From Luteimonas chenhongjianii (GTDB taxonomy: Bacteria > Pseudomonadota > Gammaproteobacteria > Xanthomonadales > Xanthomonadaceae): 64,000 bases of DNA. The notes under the pieces were generated by a model. It was not told the DNA's origin. It saw only the letters and a program-made list of their open reading frames with translations, and did no database searches. Below are positions 20,636-30,266 of this stretch, in pieces; the first letter of the stretch is position 1, and the number at the start of each line of letters is the position of its first letter. Location: NCBI RefSeq assembly GCF_002327105.1, contig NZ_CP023406.1:2294001-2358000 (forward strand), written 5' to 3'. The translations under genes and the position numbers were made by a program.

Positions 20636-21493
20636 TCAGTCGGCCGCATCGGCCTCTTCACGCCCCTGCTGGCGGATCACCGCCTCCTGGCGTGCATCCT
20701 CGATCGACCACAGGATCGACTCGGTGTCGGCCTTGCGGGTGTCGAAGACGAAACTGCCCGTCAGCGGCGAATCGGCGCGCAGCTCACCGGCTTCGAACAA
20801 CGCCCACATTTCCTCGCCGTAGTGCGTATCGGCGAGCTCGGGCGCAAAGCGCGCCAGGGTTTCGCGGATGTTGTGCACGTCGCGCAGCAGCATCTCGCGC
20901 GCGGCGTTGTTGCCGGCGGCGCTGACGACCTGCGGAAAATCGATCAGCACCGGACCATCCGGTGTCGCCAGCACGTTGTACTCCGACAGGTCGCCGTGGA
21001 TCATGCCCAGCACCAGCATCCGCACCACGTCGCGCACCAGCATCTCGTGCCATTCGCGCGCCTGCTCGGGCTCAAGCTCCACTTCCGCCAGGCGCGGCGC
21101 GCTGAAGCCCTCTCCATCGGTCACCAGGTCCATGATCAGCACGCCATGGAAGAAGCCGTGCGGCTGCGGCACGCGCACGCCGGCGTCGGCCAGCGCATAC
21201 AGCGCATCGACCTCGGTGGTCTTCCAGGCAGCTTCCTGCTCGCGCCGGCCGAACTTCGTCGCCTTGCCCATCGCCCGCTGCTCGCGGCTGCCGCGGACCT
21301 TGCGGCCCTCCTGGTACTGCACGCGGGCCTGGAAACTGCGCTGCGCCATGTCCTTGTAGACCTTCGCGCAGCGCACCTCGCCGCCAGCCTCGACGACGTA
21401 CACCGAGGCCTCCTTGCCGCTCTTGAGCGGACGCAGCACGGCGTCGATGATGCCGTCCTCGATCAGTGGCTGCAGTCCCTGCGGGATCTTCAT
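20636..21493 (-). CDS. RIO-type serine protein kinase
   Basis: A 285-residue atypical kinase of the RIO family, homologous to the archaeal and eukaryotic kinases of ribosome maturation. Visible features are the ATP-binding lysine in RCAKVYK, the catalytic loop MIHGDLSEYNVL and the metal-binding LIDFPQ. The start MKIPQGLQPLIEDG matches bacterial members; a longer start at 21535 adds an unconserved 14 residues. It lies 86 bp downstream of the S46 peptidase gene and immediately upstream of an RNA pseudouridine synthase. In bacteria its target is not established; the RNA-modification neighbour hints at a ribosome role, which is inference. Confidence 0.9.
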   Translation of the reverse strand: MKIPQGLQPLIEDGIIDAVLRPLKSGKEASVYVVEAGGEVRCAKVYKDMAQRSFQARVQYQEGRKVRGSREQRAMGKATKFGRREQEAAWKTTEVDALYALADAGVRVPQPHGFFHGVLIMDLVTDGEGFSAPRLAEVELEPEQAREWHEMLVRDVVRMLVLGMIHGDLSEYNVLATPDGPVLIDFPQVVSAAGNNAAREMLLRDVHNIRETLARFAPELADTHYGEEMWALFEAGELRADSPLTGSFVFDTRKADTESILWSIEDARQEAVIRQQGREEADAAD

Positions 21494-21578
21494 GGGGCCG
21501 ATGGCTTCCGGTATGGCCGCGTATTGTGCGGCCAAACCGGCGCCGGCACCCGAACGGCACCCGACTGCGGCACCTCGC

Positions 21579-23726
21579 TCAGGGCGTCGGCAGCCCCATT
21601 TCCTCGAGGAGCGCCGGCGCCGGATAGACCTTGCCCATCAGCCAGCGCATGTAGCGCATGTCGACATGGATCGCGCGCTTGGTGCGCGGATCGAACCACC
21701 AGCTGGCACTGACCGACTCCCAGTTGCTGTCGAAGTTCAGGCCGACCACCTGCCCGCGTGCATCGAGGACCGGCGAGCCGGAATTGCCGCCGGTGGTATC
21801 GAGGTTGGTCAGGAAGTTCACCGGCTGGGTCCGGAGCGCTGGATCGGCGTTCCCGGCAAAATCTTCGGCCGCGATCGCCTCCAGCAACGGTGCGGGCGCA
21901 TCGAACGGGGCCTGGCCGGTGTGCTTCTCGACGATACCGGCGACCGTGGTCACCGGCGAGAACGCGACCGCGTCGCGCGGCGACAGCGCTTCGACGCGGC
22001 CGTAGCTGATGCGCAGCGTGCCGTTGGCATCGGGATAGACCGCCCGCCCCTGCGAAGCGCGCCAGTCGAACAAGGCATGCATGTAGGCCGGACGCAGCCG
22101 CAACTGCTCGCCGTCGCGGGTCTTGCGCGCATCCTCGAGTTCCAGCTGCGCGGCCACCAGCGGCGCGGCGAGCGCCAGCAGGGGGTCGTCGGCCATCGGG
22201 CGACCGTCGCGCGCGGCGGCGAAGCGCGACAGCCGCGCCGGCTCCTCGCCCAGCGATGTCGCCGCATAGACGCGGTCGAGCACGCGCTCGAGGGCTTCTG
22301 GCGTGCGGCCGAACGCGGCATCGAAAGCGGGTACGCGCTGCGCGTCGGGAAGCTGCTGGTAGCGCCCGAGCAGCACCGTGAGCAAGGCCTTCTCCGCCTG
22401 CGGCGCATAACGCCGCTGCACCTGCTTCAGCACGCCTTCGAGCAATGCCTGGTCGCGCTGCTGGTAGCCCGACTCGCGCATCTCATCGGGCTTGGCGGAT
22501 TCGATCCGCAGACGCTCCAGCAGCAGCGCCGAGCGCATCAGCTGGGTCTGCGAGGCGACCAGGCCGAGCAGCAGATCGCGCTCACCCTGACCTGCGGCGT
22601 CGGCGAGGATCGCCTGCAGTTGCGTGATCGTGGCAAGGTCGTCGCCCGTGGTCCGGGCCAGCATCGCGGCCTCGTCGGCACTGCGCTGGTCGACCGCACG
22701 GCTGCGCTGCAGGCCTTCGAGTTCGCCCGCCGCACGCTTCCGGTTGTTCTTCAGCGACTGCAGCTGCGAGGCATAGCGCGTGCGCACGTCGGCATCGGCC
22801 GAGCCGGCGGCCTCGAGCGCATCGATGAGCGCGTCGAACACCGACACGCGCTGCGGCAGCGTCGCCTGCACCTGGTGCGCGAACTCGGCCGCGGTGCGGT
22901 GGCGGAAGGTCGTGCCCGGATAGCCGGCGAGCATCGCGTAGTCGCCCGCCTGCAGCCCCTCGCGCGCCACCTGGAGGTGCGCCGGCGGCTGATAGGGCAC
23001 GTTGTCGGCGCTGTAGTCGGCGGGCTTGCCGTCGCGCCCCACATAGGCGCGCAGCAGTGTGAAGTCGCCGCTGTGCCGCGGCCACATGAAGTTGTCGATC
23101 TCGTCGCCGTAGTTGCCGATCGCGCGAGGCGGTGCGTAGACCAGGCGGACGTCGCGCAGCTCGAGCTGGGTGATGCGGTAGAAATCGGTGCCGTAGTACA
23201 TGTTGGCGACGCTGCAGCGCACATTCCCGGCCTGTTCGCACTCGGCGACGATGCGCTTGCTGGCGGCATCAACGGCGTCGAAGTACGCACGGCCGGTGGT
23301 GCCGCGCGCGTGCTCGAGCACTTCGTCGGTGACCTTGTCGAAACCGATCGTGACCAGCACGCGGAAATCCGGATTCGAGGGGCGCTCATCGCCACGCCCC
23401 TCGGCGATGAAACCGCCTTCGATGATGTCGCGCCCGGGCGTGCTGTTGTACTGGATCACCCCGTAAGCCACATGGTGATTGGTCAGCAGCAGCCCCTCGC
23501 CGGACACGAAAGCGCCGGTTCCGCCCCCAACCTTGACCACCGCGCTGAGCGGCGGTGCGGTGACATCGGCCAGCGCACGCGGATCACCGCGGAAACCGAC
23601 GGCGCGCATCGGCTTCGCCAGCTCGGGCAGTTGGGTCGGCATCCACATGCCCTCGTCGGCATGGGCGATCGCGGACAGGAGAAGGCCGGCCGCAAGGGCA
23701 GCAACGGCGGGTCGACGGACAGGCAT
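21579..23726 (-). CDS. S46 family dipeptidyl-peptidase (DPP7/DPP11-like)
   Basis: A 715-residue secreted serine peptidase that removes dipeptides from peptide N-termini. A signal peptide ends at about AHA|DEGMW (residue 23). The chymotrypsin-fold triad includes the histidine in NHHVAYG and the serine in TGGNSGSPV; an alpha-helical cap (about 270-530) lies between. Eighteen residues after the catalytic serine, the position that is Gly in DPP7 and Arg in DPP11 is Ser here (GLNFDSNWE), so the P1 preference may differ. Family members support growth on peptides. It is well separated from YaeQ (93 bp) and heads the RIO/synthase run. Confidence 0.93.
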   Translation of the reverse strand: MPVRRPAVAALAAGLLLSAIAHADEGMWMPTQLPELAKPMRAVGFRGDPRALADVTAPPLSAVVKVGGGTGAFVSGEGLLLTNHHVAYGVIQYNSTPGRDIIEGGFIAEGRGDERPSNPDFRVLVTIGFDKVTDEVLEHARGTTGRAYFDAVDAASKRIVAECEQAGNVRCSVANMYYGTDFYRITQLELRDVRLVYAPPRAIGNYGDEIDNFMWPRHSGDFTLLRAYVGRDGKPADYSADNVPYQPPAHLQVAREGLQAGDYAMLAGYPGTTFRHRTAAEFAHQVQATLPQRVSVFDALIDALEAAGSADADVRTRYASQLQSLKNNRKRAAGELEGLQRSRAVDQRSADEAAMLARTTGDDLATITQLQAILADAAGQGERDLLLGLVASQTQLMRSALLLERLRIESAKPDEMRESGYQQRDQALLEGVLKQVQRRYAPQAEKALLTVLLGRYQQLPDAQRVPAFDAAFGRTPEALERVLDRVYAATSLGEEPARLSRFAAARDGRPMADDPLLALAAPLVAAQLELEDARKTRDGEQLRLRPAYMHALFDWRASQGRAVYPDANGTLRISYGRVEALSPRDAVAFSPVTTVAGIVEKHTGQAPFDAPAPLLEAIAAEDFAGNADPALRTQPVNFLTNLDTTGGNSGSPVLDARGQVVGLNFDSNWESVSASWWFDPRTKRAIHVDMRYMRWLMGKVYPAPALLEEMGLPTP

Positions 23727-23819: not shown

Positions 23820-24368
23820 TCAGTCGGCGGGACGGACCCGATAGGTCGGCGTCATCGCGATGGTCTCGACATCGCTCATCAGCTGCAGTTCGCCGTCCTG
23901 GATCATCGCGGTCAGGCGCATGCTCCGCTGCAGCAGGCGCGTGCTCGCCTCGACCGAGGCGGGATCCAGGTCGATGACGGTGAGGTTCTTCAGTCGGGTC
24001 AGCGAGTTGGCGATCCGCTCCCACCAGATCGCGGCGGCATTGCCGCTGTAGTTGATGATCGCCAGCTGGCGGGCGCGGGCGCTGGCCTTGCGGATGCGGC
24101 TTTCGTCGGGCTGACCCAGATCGATCCACTGCTCGATATCGCCGGTGTAGTCACGGCGCCACAGATCCGGCTCGTCTTCGTTGCTCAGTCCACGACCGAA
24201 TTCCAGGCGCTCGTCGGCGAACAGCGCGAACGCGATCAGGCGCACCATCAGGCGCGCGTCGGTCTCCGACGGATGCTGTGCCAGCACCAGATCGTGGGAG
24301 GCGTAGTAATGCCGGTCCATGTCGCTGACCTGCAGCTCGGCTTTGTAGACGGTGGCCTTGGGCGACAT
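23820..24368 (-). CDS. yaeQ: YaeQ family protein
   Basis: A 182-residue cytosolic protein; E. coli YaeQ has 181 residues. It starts MSPKATVYKAELQVSDMDR and contains LAQHPSETDARLMVRL and ARQLAIINYSGNAAAIWW, which are family hallmarks of a PD-(D/E)xK nuclease-like fold. YaeQ was once thought to replace RfaH, later shown to be wrong; its function is unknown. The ATG at 24368 yields the canonical length. It is divergent from the N-formylglutamate amidohydrolase-like operon across a 102-bp spacer. Confidence 0.92.
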   Translation of the reverse strand: MSPKATVYKAELQVSDMDRHYYASHDLVLAQHPSETDARLMVRLIAFALFADERLEFGRGLSNEDEPDLWRRDYTGDIEQWIDLGQPDESRIRKASARARQLAIINYSGNAAAIWWERIANSLTRLKNLTVIDLDPASVEASTRLLQRSMRLTAMIQDGELQLMSDVETIAMTPTYRVRPAD

Positions 24369-24470
24369 CGGAAGAACCCTGCACGAAACGAAGGCGCGGA
24401 TTGTATGTGAGTCACGCGTCAAGGCCCGAATGCCGCCCAGTCACGAGGCCGTGATCCGCCGCCTGCCAGC

Positions 24471-25328
24471 ATGCATTTCATGCCAGATGCACGCCGATCT
24501 TTCCCCACCTCACTCTTCTCCGACACCACGCCACCCGCCCTGCGGGCACCAGGCGACGCATGGGATCTCGTCGTCACCGACGGTCCGGTCATCGCGACCG
24601 CGATCCACGATGGCCATGCCCTGCGTGAATCGCTGCGCGCGCGCGTTGCCCTCGACGACGAGGCGCGCTGGCGCGAGGAAGACCCCCTCACCAGTCTGCT
24701 GACCCAGGTCGGCGATACGCGCCTGCGTGTGCGCCAGTCGCGGTTCGAGGTCGACCTCAACCGGCCGCGCGCCGAGGCCGTCTACGCCACGCCCGAGGCG
24801 TGCTGGGGCCTCGATGTATGGAAGGCGCCACTCGACGAGGCAGAACTCCAGGCCTCGCTCGCCCTGCACGACCGCTTCTACGACATGGTCGGCGAACTGA
24901 TCGACCGCACGGTTGCCCGCTGGGGCAGCGCCTTGCTGATCGACATCCACAGCTACAACCATCGGCGCGACGGGCCCGACGCCGCGCCTGCCGCGCAGGA
25001 CGCCAATCCCGACATCGAACTGGGCATCACCACGCTCGATGCCGACCGCTGGGGCGACACCGCCCGACGCTTCGCCAACGTGCTGCGCCGTCACCCGGTC
25101 CGTGGCGCGCTGCCCGACGTGCGCTGCAATGTCCGCTTCCCGACGGGCGGCCATTTCCCGGAGTGGGTCTATGCGCACTGGGGCGACAAGGTCTGCACGA
25201 TCTCGCCCGAGTACAAGAAGATCTTCATGGACGAGTGGACCGGCAAGGCCGACATGCCGGCGCTGTATGCACTGCGCGACGGCCTCGAGCACGCCGTGGA
25301 TGCCGTGCGCCCCGAGTTCCTGGCATGA
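24471..25328 (+). CDS. N-formylglutamate amidohydrolase-like protein
   Basis: A 285-residue member of the N-formylglutamate amidohydrolase (HutG2/NFGAH) superfamily. Metal- and substrate-binding parts are recognisable: IHDGHALRE near residue 46, SRFEVDLNR, and LLIDIHSYNHRR, with a C-terminal SPEYKKIF block. It lacks the histidine utilisation context, as no hut genes lie here. It is the first gene of a tight operon: its TGA overlaps the ATG of the DUF1704 gene as ATGA. I therefore infer that it hydrolyses an N-acyl- or glutamyl-type bond made or used by the next two enzymes rather than formylglutamate. An ATG at 24480 is an alternative start. Confidence 0.88.
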   Translation: MHFMPDARRSFPTSLFSDTTPPALRAPGDAWDLVVTDGPVIATAIHDGHALRESLRARVALDDEARWREEDPLTSLLTQVGDTRLRVRQSRFEVDLNRPRAEAVYATPEACWGLDVWKAPLDEAELQASLALHDRFYDMVGELIDRTVARWGSALLIDIHSYNHRRDGPDAAPAAQDANPDIELGITTLDADRWGDTARRFANVLRRHPVRGALPDVRCNVRFPTGGHFPEWVYAHWGDKVCTISPEYKKIFMDEWTGKADMPALYALRDGLEHAVDAVRPEFLA

Positions 25329-26536
25329 GCCCAGCGGTGAAGCGACCGGTGGCGCGGCCACTGCCGGAGCTTGCGGCGCAGATCGACGCCACGCTGTCAA
25401 CACTCGATGCCCGCCTCGACTGGTTGCTGGCCCTGTCGCCGATCGACACCCCGGGCCTGTGGAACGCCTTCGACGGCAGCGGCCGCATCTCCGAGCCGGT
25501 GCTGCGCTACGTGGACCTGGAGATCGATTTCGGTGCGCTCCGGCACGAGCTGGCGGCGCTGCCCATGACCGAGGTGCAGCCTCCCGCACTGCAGGCGCTT
25601 CTGGTCGAGAAGCAGGGCGAGCTCTCCCGGATGATCGACCTGGTCGAGCAACGCGACCGGCCGGATTTCATCGAGGCCAGCGTCGCCCTGTTCGGCGCGG
25701 TGGAACCGGAACTGGTCGAACTGGCCGACCGCATCCTCGCGACCGTTCCCCCGGGCGACCCCCTGCCGGCCGATTGCGGCATCGACGAGGTGCGCAGCCA
25801 GGTCGAGGACGAGATCGCCTGGTACCGCGCGCAGGCGCCGGACTTCCATATCGACGTCGTCATCGACACCGACATCAGCTCCTCGTTGATGGTGTCCCAT
25901 GGCACGTTCTACATCGATGGCAACATCCGCCTGCCGCGGGCGCGGGTGCGTCCGCTGATCCAGCACGAGATCGGCACCCACGTCGTGACCCGGCACAACG
26001 GCCGCCAACAGGCACTGCGGCAGCTCGAGGTCGGACTGGCCCAGTACGACCCGACCCAGGAGGGCCTCGGCGTGCTGGGCGAATACCTGTCCGGCTACCT
26101 CCCGGGAGCGCGGCTGCGCATCCTCGCCGCGCGGGTGGTGGCCACGGCCATGGCGGCGTCGGGCGCGCAACTGCCGGCGATCTTCGCCTGCCTGCACGAG
26201 GCACACGGCATGCCGACCGACGAAGCCTTCGATGTGGCGGTGCGCGCGCGCCGCGGCGGCGGGTTGACCAAGGATGCGGTGTACCTGCGCGGCCTGCGCG
26301 ACCTGCTCGCCTATCTCGAAGCGGGCGGCGAGTTCGACACGCTGTTCCTGGGCAAGTTCGCCCTGCCGCAACTCGAACTGCTGGAGGCACTGGTCGATGA
26401 CGGCTGGATCGTGCCGCCGGCCCTGCTGCCCCGTTACACCACCGACCCCGATTTCCGTGATCGGCTTGCCGCGTGTCGGCAGACGCCGGTCGAACGCCTC
26501 TACCAGTCGCACCGCCCCCAGGAGCACACCGCATGA
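25325..26536 (+). CDS. DUF1704/MATCAP-like metallopeptidase (QEGLA protein)
   Basis: A 403-residue protein of the DUF1704 family, sometimes labelled flavohemoglobin expression-modulating QEGLA protein and homologous to the human tubulin tyrosine carboxypeptidase MATCAP. The metal site HEIGTH lies at 214-219 and the signature QEGLG with a following glutamate at 245-253. An N-terminal helical part (about 10-140) precedes the peptidase core. By homology it would remove a C-terminal residue, often tyrosine-like, from a peptide or protein. Both ends are translationally coupled (ATGA on each side) to the NFGAH-like and ATP-grasp genes. The natural bacterial substrate is unknown. Confidence 0.87.
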   Translation: MSPAVKRPVARPLPELAAQIDATLSTLDARLDWLLALSPIDTPGLWNAFDGSGRISEPVLRYVDLEIDFGALRHELAALPMTEVQPPALQALLVEKQGELSRMIDLVEQRDRPDFIEASVALFGAVEPELVELADRILATVPPGDPLPADCGIDEVRSQVEDEIAWYRAQAPDFHIDVVIDTDISSSLMVSHGTFYIDGNIRLPRARVRPLIQHEIGTHVVTRHNGRQQALRQLEVGLAQYDPTQEGLGVLGEYLSGYLPGARLRILAARVVATAMAASGAQLPAIFACLHEAHGMPTDEAFDVAVRARRGGGLTKDAVYLRGLRDLLAYLEAGGEFDTLFLGKFALPQLELLEALVDDGWIVPPALLPRYTTDPDFRDRLAACRQTPVERLYQSHRPQEHTA

Positions 26537-27597
26537 GCGAGACGCGCAGCATGCGCCTCGGCTTCGTCGTCAACGATGTCGCCACCGAACAGGACAACTA
26601 CACCACCATCCGGCTCGCGCGTACGGCCGTGGGCCGCGGGCACCAGGTCTCGCTGATCGGACTGGGGGATTTCACCTACGACCCGAGCGGCACGGTACGG
26701 GCCAAGGCCTACGTGCCCTGCGGCCCCGACTACACCGACGACGCCGCGCTGCTCGCCGACATCCAGTCGACCGACTGCGAGACGGTGCAGGTGTCGGTGG
26801 ACGACCTCGATGTCCTGATGCTGCGGAGTGACCCCGCGGTGGAGATGGCGGAACGGCCGTGGGCGCCGTCCAGCGGTCTGCTGTTCGCGCAGTTGGCCGG
26901 GCTGCGCCGTGCCCTGGTGCTCAACGACCCTTCGCATCTGACCGACGCCTCGAACAAGACCTATTTCCAGCACTTTCCGGAAGAAGTCCGACCGGTGACC
27001 TGCATCAGCCGGGATCCGGAGGAGATCAAGAAATTCATCACCGACCGCGATGGCTATGGAGTCGTCAAGCCCCTGCAGGGCTCGGGCGGCCAAGGCGTGT
27101 TCGTGATCACCCCCGACAGCGGCGGCAACCTCAACCAGATGATCGACGCGGTGATCCGCGATGGCTACGCGATCGCCCAGGAATACCTGCCCAAGGCCAA
27201 GGACGGCGATCTGCGCCTGTTGATGCTCAATGGCCGCCCGCTCGAGGTCGACGGCACCTACGCCTGCATCCGCCGATACAACGACAGCGGCGACGCGCGC
27301 AGCAACATCAGCGCCGGGGGCAAGTACGAGATGGCGGTGCCAGACGCGGACGCACTGCGACTGGCCGATCTGGTCGCGCCGAAGCTGATCCGCGACGGCA
27401 TGTATTTCGTCGGTCTCGACATCGTCGGCGACAAGCTGATGGAGGTGAACGTCGACACCCCGGGCGGCATCAACATGGTCGAGGAACTGACCGGGCTGGA
27501 TTTCTCCGGCCACATCATCGACGACCTGGAGCGCAAGCTGCGGCTGCGCGAGCATTACGGCCGCACGCTGACCAACGTGGAACTCGCGATGCTCTAG
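26533..27597 (+). CDS. GshB-like ATP-grasp ligase
   Basis: A 354-residue ATP-grasp enzyme closely resembling glutathione synthetase GshB. Shared blocks include the N-terminal RLGFVVND, the ATP-binding VVKPLQGSGGQGVF, YLPKAKDGDLRLLMLNG, SNISAGGK and the metal-binding FVGLDIVGDKLMEVNVDTPG. No gshA is visible, and the gene is the third of an operon with NFGAH-like and DUF1704 enzymes, so I doubt that glutathione is its product; it may join an amino acid or peptide to a carboxylate. AGGAG precedes the ATG, which overlaps the previous stop. A housekeeping gshB elsewhere in the genome is expected. Confidence 0.88.
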   Translation: MSETRSMRLGFVVNDVATEQDNYTTIRLARTAVGRGHQVSLIGLGDFTYDPSGTVRAKAYVPCGPDYTDDAALLADIQSTDCETVQVSVDDLDVLMLRSDPAVEMAERPWAPSSGLLFAQLAGLRRALVLNDPSHLTDASNKTYFQHFPEEVRPVTCISRDPEEIKKFITDRDGYGVVKPLQGSGGQGVFVITPDSGGNLNQMIDAVIRDGYAIAQEYLPKAKDGDLRLLMLNGRPLEVDGTYACIRRYNDSGDARSNISAGGKYEMAVPDADALRLADLVAPKLIRDGMYFVGLDIVGDKLMEVNVDTPGGINMVEELTGLDFSGHIIDDLERKLRLREHYGRTLTNVELAML

Positions 27598-27829: not shown

Positions 27830-30160
27830 TCACTCGGGCGCCGGGCCCGGCGGGATCGGCGCGCCCGCGCCACGGCGGATGCGCACCGGCACCGACTTGC
27901 CTGCAGGCACGTGACTGTCGACCGCGTGATGCGAGACCGGGATCAGCGGATTGCACTCGGGGTAGTAGGCCGCGATGCAGCCGCGCGGAATCCGATAGGG
28001 GATCGGCCGCAGCCCCCCCACCTCGCGCACTTCAGGGTCATCATCGAAATCCGCGACCAGGGTGATGTGTTCGCCCTCGTCCAGGCCCAGCGCGGCGATG
28101 TCGTCCTCATGCATCAGCACCACGCGGCGGGTGCCTTCGATGCCGCGGAACCGGTCGCGGTAACCATAGACCGTGGTGTTGAACTGGTCGTTGCTGCGCA
28201 CCGTGATCAGGCGGTACCGGCCCGCGCGGTCTTCGAAACCGGTTGCGCACAGCACCTCCGGCACGTGGAATTCAGCCTTGCCGCTCTCGGTCTCCCAGCG
28301 CCGCTCGCGCGCCGCGACCGGACGCGGGAATCCACCGGGCGTGTGCAAGCGCGCATTGAAGTCGCGGAACTGGTCGGGATACGTCGCCTCGATCGCACCG
28401 CGAACCTGCGCGTAGTCCCCGACCCATTGTTCCCATGGCACCAGGGCAGCCCGCTCGGGCGGGAGGATCGCCTGCGCCAGCGCGGCGACGATCGCGGGTT
28501 CGGAGCGAAGCGTGTCAGCGACCGGTGGACTGATACCGAGCGAGCCATGGATGCAGGTGGTGCTGTCCTCGATGCTGACGTGCTGCGCGCCGGTCGCCTG
28601 CACGTCCTCCTCGATCCGCCCCAGGCACGGCAGCAACAGGGTTTCGCGCGCGCACAGCAGATGGTTGCGGTTTAGATGGGTGGCGACCTGCAGGCTCAGC
28701 GCGAGACCGCGCCACGCGGGTTCGAGGCGCGCGGTATCCGGCGCCGCGCGCGAGAAATTGCCGCCCAGCCCGATGAAGGCTTCGACGCTGCCGTCCAGGA
28801 TGCCTTCCACCGTGCCCACGGTGTCGAGCCCCTTCTCGCGCGGCGGCTCGAATCCGTACTGTTCGGACAACCGGTCCAATGGCACCAGCTCGGGCTTTTC
28901 GGAAATCCCGACAGTGCGCTGACCCTGCACGTTGGAGTGGCCACGCACCGGGCAGATGCCTGCACCGGGCCGGCCGATATTGCCGCGCATCAGGGCGAGA
29001 TTGCACAGCATGCGGACGTTGTCGACCCCATGACGGTGCTGGGTCAGGCCCATTCCGTAGATCAGGATCGTCGACTTGGCCTGTGCGTAGACCGCAGCGA
29101 CCGATTCGATATCGTCGCGCGACAGGCCGCTCTCGGTTTCGATCCGCTGCCAGTCGGCAGCGCGCAGCCAGGCCTCGAACGCGTCGAAGCCGTTGGTATG
29201 GCTTTCGATGAACTCGACATCCAGCACGCGGGCATCGCCCCGCGCGCGCGCCGCGTCATCCAGATCGAGCAGCGCCCGCGCCAGGCCCTGCAGCAGCGCG
29301 ATATCGCCGCCGGCGCGTACCGGGAAGTAGGCGTTGCTGATCCGCGTCGATGTGCCGGTGGCCATCGCCAGCGGCTCCTGGGGATTGGTGAAACGCTCCC
29401 AGCCGCGCTCGTATAGCGGGTTGAAGGTGAAGATGTCGGCGCCGCGTCGCGCGGCCTCCTGCAACGGATGCAGCATGCGCGGGCTGTTGACGCCGACGTT
29501 CTGGCCGAACGAAAGGATGCAGTCGCAGTGGTCGAAGTCTTCCAGCAGCACCGTGCCCACCGGCACACCGATGCTGCGCGGCAGGCCGACCGAGGTGCTC
29601 TCGTGGCACATGTTGGAACTGTCGGGCAGATTGTTGTTGCCGTAGAGCCGTGCCAGCAGCGCGTACATGTAGGAGGTCTCGAGCGAAGCGCGGCCCGAGG
29701 CATAGAACACGGCGCGTTCGGGCGCCATGTCGCGCAGCACACGGCCCGCGATCGCGAACGCCTCCTCCCACGAGATTCCGACGTAACGGTCGCTGGACGC
29801 GTCGTAGCGCATCGGCTCGACCAGTCGGCCCTGTGCTTCCAGATCGTGGTCGGCCCAGGTGAGCAGTTCGCTGACCGTGTGCCGCTCGAAGAACCCGGCA
29901 TCGACGCGACGCTTGTCGAGCTCCCAGAGCGTCGCCTTTGCTCCGTTCTCGCAGAATTCGAACGGGTGAGGTTCGGCCGGCTTGGCCCAGGAGCAGCTTA
30001 CACAGGCGAAGCCGTCGACCTTGTTCTGGCGCTGCAGCTGGCGCGCGCCTTCCGCCGTTCGCGCGCCTTCGCCGAGCCCATGACGCAGCAGGGATCGGAC
30101 CGAGCCCCAGCCGCCCGCGGGCGCTTTGTATGGCATGAAGCTTGGCGTTGGCTGGCTCAT
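27830..30160 (-). CDS. FdhF/YdeP family molybdopterin oxidoreductase
   Basis: A 776-residue molybdoenzyme related to formate dehydrogenase alpha chains but of the YdeP type (TIGR01701). A short Cys pair, FACVSCSWAKP near residue 50, is in the position of the iron-sulfur motif but with too few cysteines for a full classical set. The likely molybdenum ligand is the cysteine in DSSNMCHESTS, not selenocysteine. CGGAG precedes the ATG at 30160. YdeP is linked to acid resistance in E. coli and its substrate is unclear. No fdhD or electron-transfer subunit lies nearby; a CPXCG protein gene is divergent. Confidence 0.9.
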   Translation of the reverse strand: MSQPTPSFMPYKAPAGGWGSVRSLLRHGLGEGARTAEGARQLQRQNKVDGFACVSCSWAKPAEPHPFEFCENGAKATLWELDKRRVDAGFFERHTVSELLTWADHDLEAQGRLVEPMRYDASSDRYVGISWEEAFAIAGRVLRDMAPERAVFYASGRASLETSYMYALLARLYGNNNLPDSSNMCHESTSVGLPRSIGVPVGTVLLEDFDHCDCILSFGQNVGVNSPRMLHPLQEAARRGADIFTFNPLYERGWERFTNPQEPLAMATGTSTRISNAYFPVRAGGDIALLQGLARALLDLDDAARARGDARVLDVEFIESHTNGFDAFEAWLRAADWQRIETESGLSRDDIESVAAVYAQAKSTILIYGMGLTQHRHGVDNVRMLCNLALMRGNIGRPGAGICPVRGHSNVQGQRTVGISEKPELVPLDRLSEQYGFEPPREKGLDTVGTVEGILDGSVEAFIGLGGNFSRAAPDTARLEPAWRGLALSLQVATHLNRNHLLCARETLLLPCLGRIEEDVQATGAQHVSIEDSTTCIHGSLGISPPVADTLRSEPAIVAALAQAILPPERAALVPWEQWVGDYAQVRGAIEATYPDQFRDFNARLHTPGGFPRPVAARERRWETESGKAEFHVPEVLCATGFEDRAGRYRLITVRSNDQFNTTVYGYRDRFRGIEGTRRVVLMHEDDIAALGLDEGEHITLVADFDDDPEVREVGGLRPIPYRIPRGCIAAYYPECNPLIPVSHHAVDSHVPAGKSVPVRIRRGAGAPIPPGPAPE

Positions 30161-30266
30161 GGCGGCTCCGTCATCTACATGACGCACCACCCTCGCGCAG
30201 ACGACCTGCCAACTCCGTGAAAATCGGCGTCACGGGACCAGGAGGAGGTGCCGGCATACTTCCTCC

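Follow-up and report, generated by a model that had tools for sequence, protein, structure and literature searches.

Three adjacent genes in the 64,000-nucleotide stretch of Luteimonas chenhongjianii DNA analysed here (the window) form a confirmed ATGA-coupled operon. They encode an amidohydrolase (NFG), a carboxypeptidase (MAT) and an amide ligase (LIG), and this trio is real, widespread and functionally uncharacterised in the literature searched, with new anatomical detail reported here. We propose, with confidence that is about evenly balanced, that the trio is a self-contained cytoplasmic pathway for the synthesis and turnover of a small amide-linked metabolite of the peptide type.

The operon and its setting in the host genome

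A first-pass annotation of this DNA had described three amide-bond genes on one strand joined by two ATGA overlaps, and both overlaps were found as described (Table 1). The family assignments made at that time also held: NFG matches PF05013 (78.6 bits, above the gathering score of 28.9), MAT matches PF08014 (MATCAP; 256.2 bits, above the gathering score of 27) and LIG matches two prokaryotic GshB families, PF02955 (151 bits) and PF02951 (34 bits). Since the flanking YaeQ and FdhF/YdeP genes both lie on the opposite strand, the operon consists of three genes only. Near to it a gene for an S46 dipeptidyl-peptidase (Dpp7-like; 21579-23726, - strand; 349 bits, below the equivalog cut-off) was identified, which is adjoined by a gene encoding a RIO1-like kinase (20636-21535).

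Table 1. Genes and overlaps of the operon and its two flanking genes (positions in the window).
Feature	Position	Strand	Basis
NFG, FGase-family (PF05013) amidohydrolase, 285 aa	24471..25328	+	ORF and family match
MAT, MATCAP/DUF1704 zinc carboxypeptidase, 403 aa, short form	25325..26536	+	ORF and family match
LIG, GshB-like ATP-grasp amide ligase, 354 aa	26533..27597	+	ORF, family match and structure model
ATGA overlap, NFG stop/MAT start	25325..25328	+	
ATGA overlap, MAT stop/LIG start	26533..26536	+	
YaeQ, flanking gene	23820-24377	-	
FdhF/YdeP oxidoreductase, flanking gene	27830-30190	-	

The host genome (G000) is a single contig of 3.35 Mb. Elsewhere it encodes a canonical GshB (TIGR01380, 438 bits; cut-off 299), a HutG (TIGR02017, 343.8 bits; cut-off 278.75) and a classic-type QEGLA MATCAP, whose 332.3 bits against TIGR02421 are just under the cut-off of 338.65. 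The earlier remark that no gshA is near was borne out, the genome's one GCS2-type GshA candidate being located far outside the window; a search of the host genome for a GshA of the E. coli type found none. Because the genome also encodes these proteins, and because the window proteins miss the curated GshB, QEGLA and HutG models, NFG, MAT and LIG are divergent paralogs distinct from the housekeeping copies. The first-pass annotation had itself raised the case that LIG might be the sole housekeeping GshB, and this was rejected given the canonical copy.

The three enzymes and their known relatives

GshB ligates glycine to gamma-Glu-Cys. The predicted structure of LIG (pLDDT 90.2) finds its best solved-structure match in E. 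coli GshB (1gsa; TM 0.90 on the target, 27% identity), as compared with TM 0.72-0.78 for the RimK chains listed. The likeness to glutathione synthetase that had been noted from the sequence is upheld, yet LIG obtains 174.3 bits against TIGR01380 (GshB), well under the cut-off of 299.05, and 399 bits against NF009110, which NCBI names glutathione synthetase (cut-off 408). The fold, the ATP-grasp lysines, the GxGG loop, three conserved arginines and the D/E/N site are common to both enzymes: 25 columns reach 90% conservation or more among 58 LIG as well as among 28 GshB sequences, including K142, K179, the GSGG loop, R228, R248, R256 and D296, and LIG E304 and N306 are also the commonest residues in GshB (0.89 and 0.86). 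We take K142 and K179 to be the ATP lysines and D296, E304 and N306 to be the Mg ligands. The N-terminal and NVxxP loops, in contrast, are changed. One column is fixed differently, the invariant D12 of GshB being N14 in LIG, and the GshB loop NVTSPTCIRE is NVxxPGG in LIG; both are presumably sites that hold the substrate in GshB. Moreover, LIG and five GshB proteins fall in separate clades (support 100) and LIG, unlike GshB, adjoins MAT in nearly every place seen. The ligase of locus L084 (Pan216) has an internal stop.

MATCAP enzymes cleave Tyr, Phe or Glu off the C-terminus of a protein tail. In MAT the HEIGTH (residues 214-219) and QEGL (245-248) motifs were found as first annotated, the HExxxH residues and the third zinc ligand Glu are present (H214, E215, H219 and E246), and R307, R310, K316 and Y320 are also intact. 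In contrast to the MATCAP/TMCP tubulin carboxypeptidases (PDB 7z5g), MAT is bacterial, with no tubulin known here, and its gene adjoins ligase and FGase genes. A widespread bacterial long form adds an N-terminal degenerate (dead) copy of the FGase fold; the MAT of the window is a short form that has no such pseudo-FGase domain. Fusions of MAT to FGase, live or dead, exist among the relatives. The long form as a single group has a support of only 35 in the MAT tree, where one fusion protein (L055) is a long branch with no placement. The Pfam family PF08014 is common to MAT and the bacterial QEGLA protein (TIGR02421, flavohemoglobin expression-modulating), but this classic type and the operon type form separate clades (support 99), the window MAT reaches only 282.3 bits against the TIGR02421 cut-off of 338.65, and the classic loci are without LIG or NFG.

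NFG has the FGase family PF05013 in common with HutG (TIGR02017) and the FGase 2q7s, but it gave no match to TIGR02017, nor to any NCBIfam family at E<=1e-3. Residues H46, E69, E70, D71 and H160 are putative metal-site residues, each 99-100% conserved in an alignment of 83 sequences that includes the window NFG. A scan of eight proteins around the operon revealed no hut gene, and histidine utilisation is disfavoured as the role of NFG, the HutG of the genome being placed elsewhere.

Distribution and neighbourhood of the operon

Conservation of the gene order, which the first-pass annotation had suggested checking, was confirmed: the neighbours co-occur in Pseudomonadota, in Lysobacteraceae and in records of 15 phyla. 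As the same order recurs across phyla, the arrangement is not due to chance.

PF08014 was found in 23 of 249 sampled Pseudomonadota genomes, and operon-type and classic loci were split with profiles built from relatives of the window proteins. LIG adjoins MAT in eight of nine operon-type loci (the exception is L056, and L063, where MAT is a fragment, was left out), and neither LIG nor NFG was found at any of 16 classic MAT loci, for which 12-19 kb each were retrieved (at L039 and L040 a contig end lies close by on one side). Seven of the 249 genomes have LIG at E<=1e-60 (G000, G006, G037, G093, G109, G113 and G173). Operon-type MAT is present in six of them; in the seventh, G109, a contig end truncates the locus, the LIG starting at base 42. 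At the same threshold LIG was found in none of the 15 genomes that have classic MAT only (14 typed by profile, G062 by PF08014 score). Within the Lysobacteraceae, 22 of 149 genomes and 11 of 54 genera have LIG; MAT is adjacent at all 23 LIG places (with NFG and MAT of L191 in split frames). NFG comes next at 22 of them, and at the remaining one the contig ends. The MAT is of the short form at seventeen of the 23 places, window included, and of the long form at six; one genome (G378) has short and long operon forms at separate sites (L180 and L194). The distribution is patchy even within the genus g1 (four of the six among those listed).

A scan of named genomes with the MAT alignment gave at least 581 confirmed matches, and the best 80, chosen by likeness to a long-form MAT query, were kept. 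The loci of these best 80 are mostly metagenome-assembled, and their phylum labels are the records' own. Four pairs (L064/L059, L105/L060, L065/L058 and L080/L056) are, judged by length, the same contigs, so that the 80 named loci overlap in part with the phylum sample. By record name, 15 phyla are found among these best 80 of at least 581: Planctomycetota, Poribacteria, Acidobacteriota, Kiritimatiellota, Verrucomicrobiota, Calditrichota, Ignavibacteriota, Bacteroidota, Balneolota, Gemmatimonadota, Campylobacterota, Thermodesulfobacteriota, Myxococcota, Actinomycetota and Pseudomonadota. In the same best 80, LIG is placed downstream of MAT in 74 loci (three contig ends, three misses), with a median distance of -3 bp from the MAT stop to the LIG domain, and NFG is placed upstream in 65 (five contig ends, two elsewhere, eight not found).

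Two or three LIG copies are present in 10 of the best 80 of at least 581 MAT loci, six of the ten being Planctomycetota. LIG is multiplied in all ten of these large clusters and MAT (two or three copies) in only some. The LIG copies within a cluster belong to different clades, and these clades recur in several organisms: one (support 99) unites six first copies with the single copy of L075 and the third copy of L114, and another (support 99) unites the second copy of L067 with the third copies of L066, L069 and L135. This suggests a different substrate for each copy, and the paralogs of a cluster probably add different residues in turn.

When the ORFs that flank the named loci were clustered, no fourth partner with a constant position next to the operon emerged across phyla. 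Antisense frames of the operon genes make up the two largest clusters (80 and 51 loci); the others reach up to 15 loci and either lie at scattered distances and on both strands or are confined to one genus. No family exceeds five in a Pfam tally of 121 flanking ORFs (sigma-54 activators, five). PF14402 and PF14400 (a seven-helix protein with an inactive transglutaminase), which we take to be another ATP-grasp context, were seen in two of the 121 each. Among 4478 short frames located no more than 0.9 kb from 103 operons, no conserved precursor peptide was found, the shared sets shown staying within single genera.

Genes encoding the transporters MgtE or CorA were found in the operon or within 1.3 kb of it in 8 of the best 80 of at least 581 loci (L064, L068, L069, L072, L081, L117, L120 and L122), with MgtE inserted between MAT and LIG in L072, and elsewhere in the flanks of two further loci (L076 and L135). 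The queries were picked from the operon neighbours themselves, and the comparison of near and far transporters (p = 0.0016; 8 of 11 genes, the intra-operon MgtE of L072 being left out) is post hoc and counts L068 twice. The controls gave no MgtE or CorA in 16 classic MAT loci (277 kb) or in 28 GshB loci (110 kb); there is none in the window and one in 22 Lysobacteraceae operon loci. The operon is possibly tied to Mg2+ or divalent-cation homeostasis, which we offer as a lead only, drawn from neighbour genes of which none is in the window.

Proposed pathway and alternative readings

In the pathway that we propose, LIG would activate a carboxylate at the expense of ATP and couple it to an amino acid or amine; this carboxylate is probably the C-terminal one of an acidic amino acid or of a short peptide. 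MAT would act on the same molecule or on its precursor, cutting off a C-terminal residue in trimming, proofreading or recycling, and NFG, with its FGase/M14-like fold, would remove an N-acyl or N-formyl cap or cleave a side amide. The dead FGase copy of the long-form MAT is probably a substrate-binding platform. As MAT is found fused to live or dead FGase, it can be argued that MAT and NFG read one ligand; for the host genome this argument is indirect, since the window MAT is without the pseudo-FGase domain.

The trio is probably a complete pathway, because it recurs in records of 15 phyla and no other fixed partner was found. The inference of the first-pass annotation is supported in part: its dedicated amide-bond pathway withstood both of the refuting conditions set there, since the neighbours do co-occur and LIG is not the only GshB of the genome, whereas the glutamyl substrate and the protein tag that it considered stay hypothetical. 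We infer the substrates and the direction of flux, and also that the product would be a metabolite rather than a protein: a small molecule is favoured because the nearest fold is GshB, because neither an acceptor gene at a fixed place nor a precursor peptide was found beside the operon, and because the ligases multiply in tandem. On the other side, FGase and MATCAP enzymes are hydrolases that could serve pure catabolism, and no NFG was found in 8 of the best 80 of at least 581 loci.

RimK and TTL are ligases that add residues to cell proteins. A protein-tag cycle, in which LIG attaches a residue or short peptide to a protein C-terminus or side chain, MAT takes it off again and NFG cuts at the branch point, is unlikely, considering that LIG is closer to GshB, a small-molecule enzyme, than to the RimK chains listed, and that no candidate acceptor gene is at a fixed place beside the operon, although an acceptor could be encoded elsewhere. 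Two of the three enzymes being hydrolases, the operon might instead serve catabolism or salvage, breaking down an imported N-acylated peptide with LIG acting in a detoxifying or storage step. We consider this improbable since no importer stands out beside the operon except the Mg2+ transporters (ABC transporter ATPases are 3 of the 121 flanking ORFs) and LIG, rather than MAT, is multiplied in every large cluster.

LIG could also be an alternative glutathione synthetase, the operon making and recycling glutathione or a close analogue, as the GshB fold with its sequence identity and the name of NF009110 would suggest. Moreover, the four Magnetococcia-type genomes tested (G006, G037, G093 and G113) all have LIG and a strong GCS2 match with no GshB over the cut-off; since a GCS2-type GshA candidate is present there and no protein scores as GshB, LIG could fill the GshB role in those genomes. 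None of the 13 LIG genomes tested outside Lysobacteraceae has a GshB over the TIGR01380 cut-off. However, 4 of these 13 are without GshA of either Pfam family, the host genome has its canonical GshB and GshA candidate elsewhere, and LIG misses the GshB model and is altered at D12 and the NVTSPTCIRE loop. This reading is therefore quite doubtful, and ordinary glutathione synthesis by the operon is disfavoured.

Eukaryotes use ATP-grasp ligase, MATCAP carboxypeptidase and M14-like hydrolase folds on tubulin tails. A bacterial writer/eraser cycle in which the same three kinds of enzyme target the C-terminal end of a small peptide or of a protein is a speculation to which we give little credence; if true, the trio would be one bacterial system and would hint at the origin of the MATCAP half of the tubulin code. 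A graspetide (RiPP) or other ribosomal precursor peptide was rejected, no short conserved ORF being found beside the operon beyond the genus level.

In the literature searched we found no paper on the NFG-MAT-LIG operon or its function. Neighbourhoods of an ATP-grasp amidoligase and peptidases, whose product peptide was not known, were reportedly predicted by Iyer et al. 2009; they are reported to join a ligase with peptidases of unrelated folds, as does the trio, and a version of the trio prediction may be contained there. The accessible portions of PMC10499314 and PMC13269789 deal with enzymes from humans, cell lines and Tetrahymena, and a bacterial homologue of MATCAP is not named in them. 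QEGLA or DUF1704 is mentioned in PMC10308900 and PMC3245289.

The results call database names into question: "glutathione synthase" is a frequent label for relatives of LIG, and relatives of MAT often go by "flavohemoglobin expression-modulating protein", while the window LIG and MAT fall under both curated cut-offs. Moreover, the bacterial relatives of the human tubulin enzyme gain a defined set of partners, with which their substrate becomes findable.
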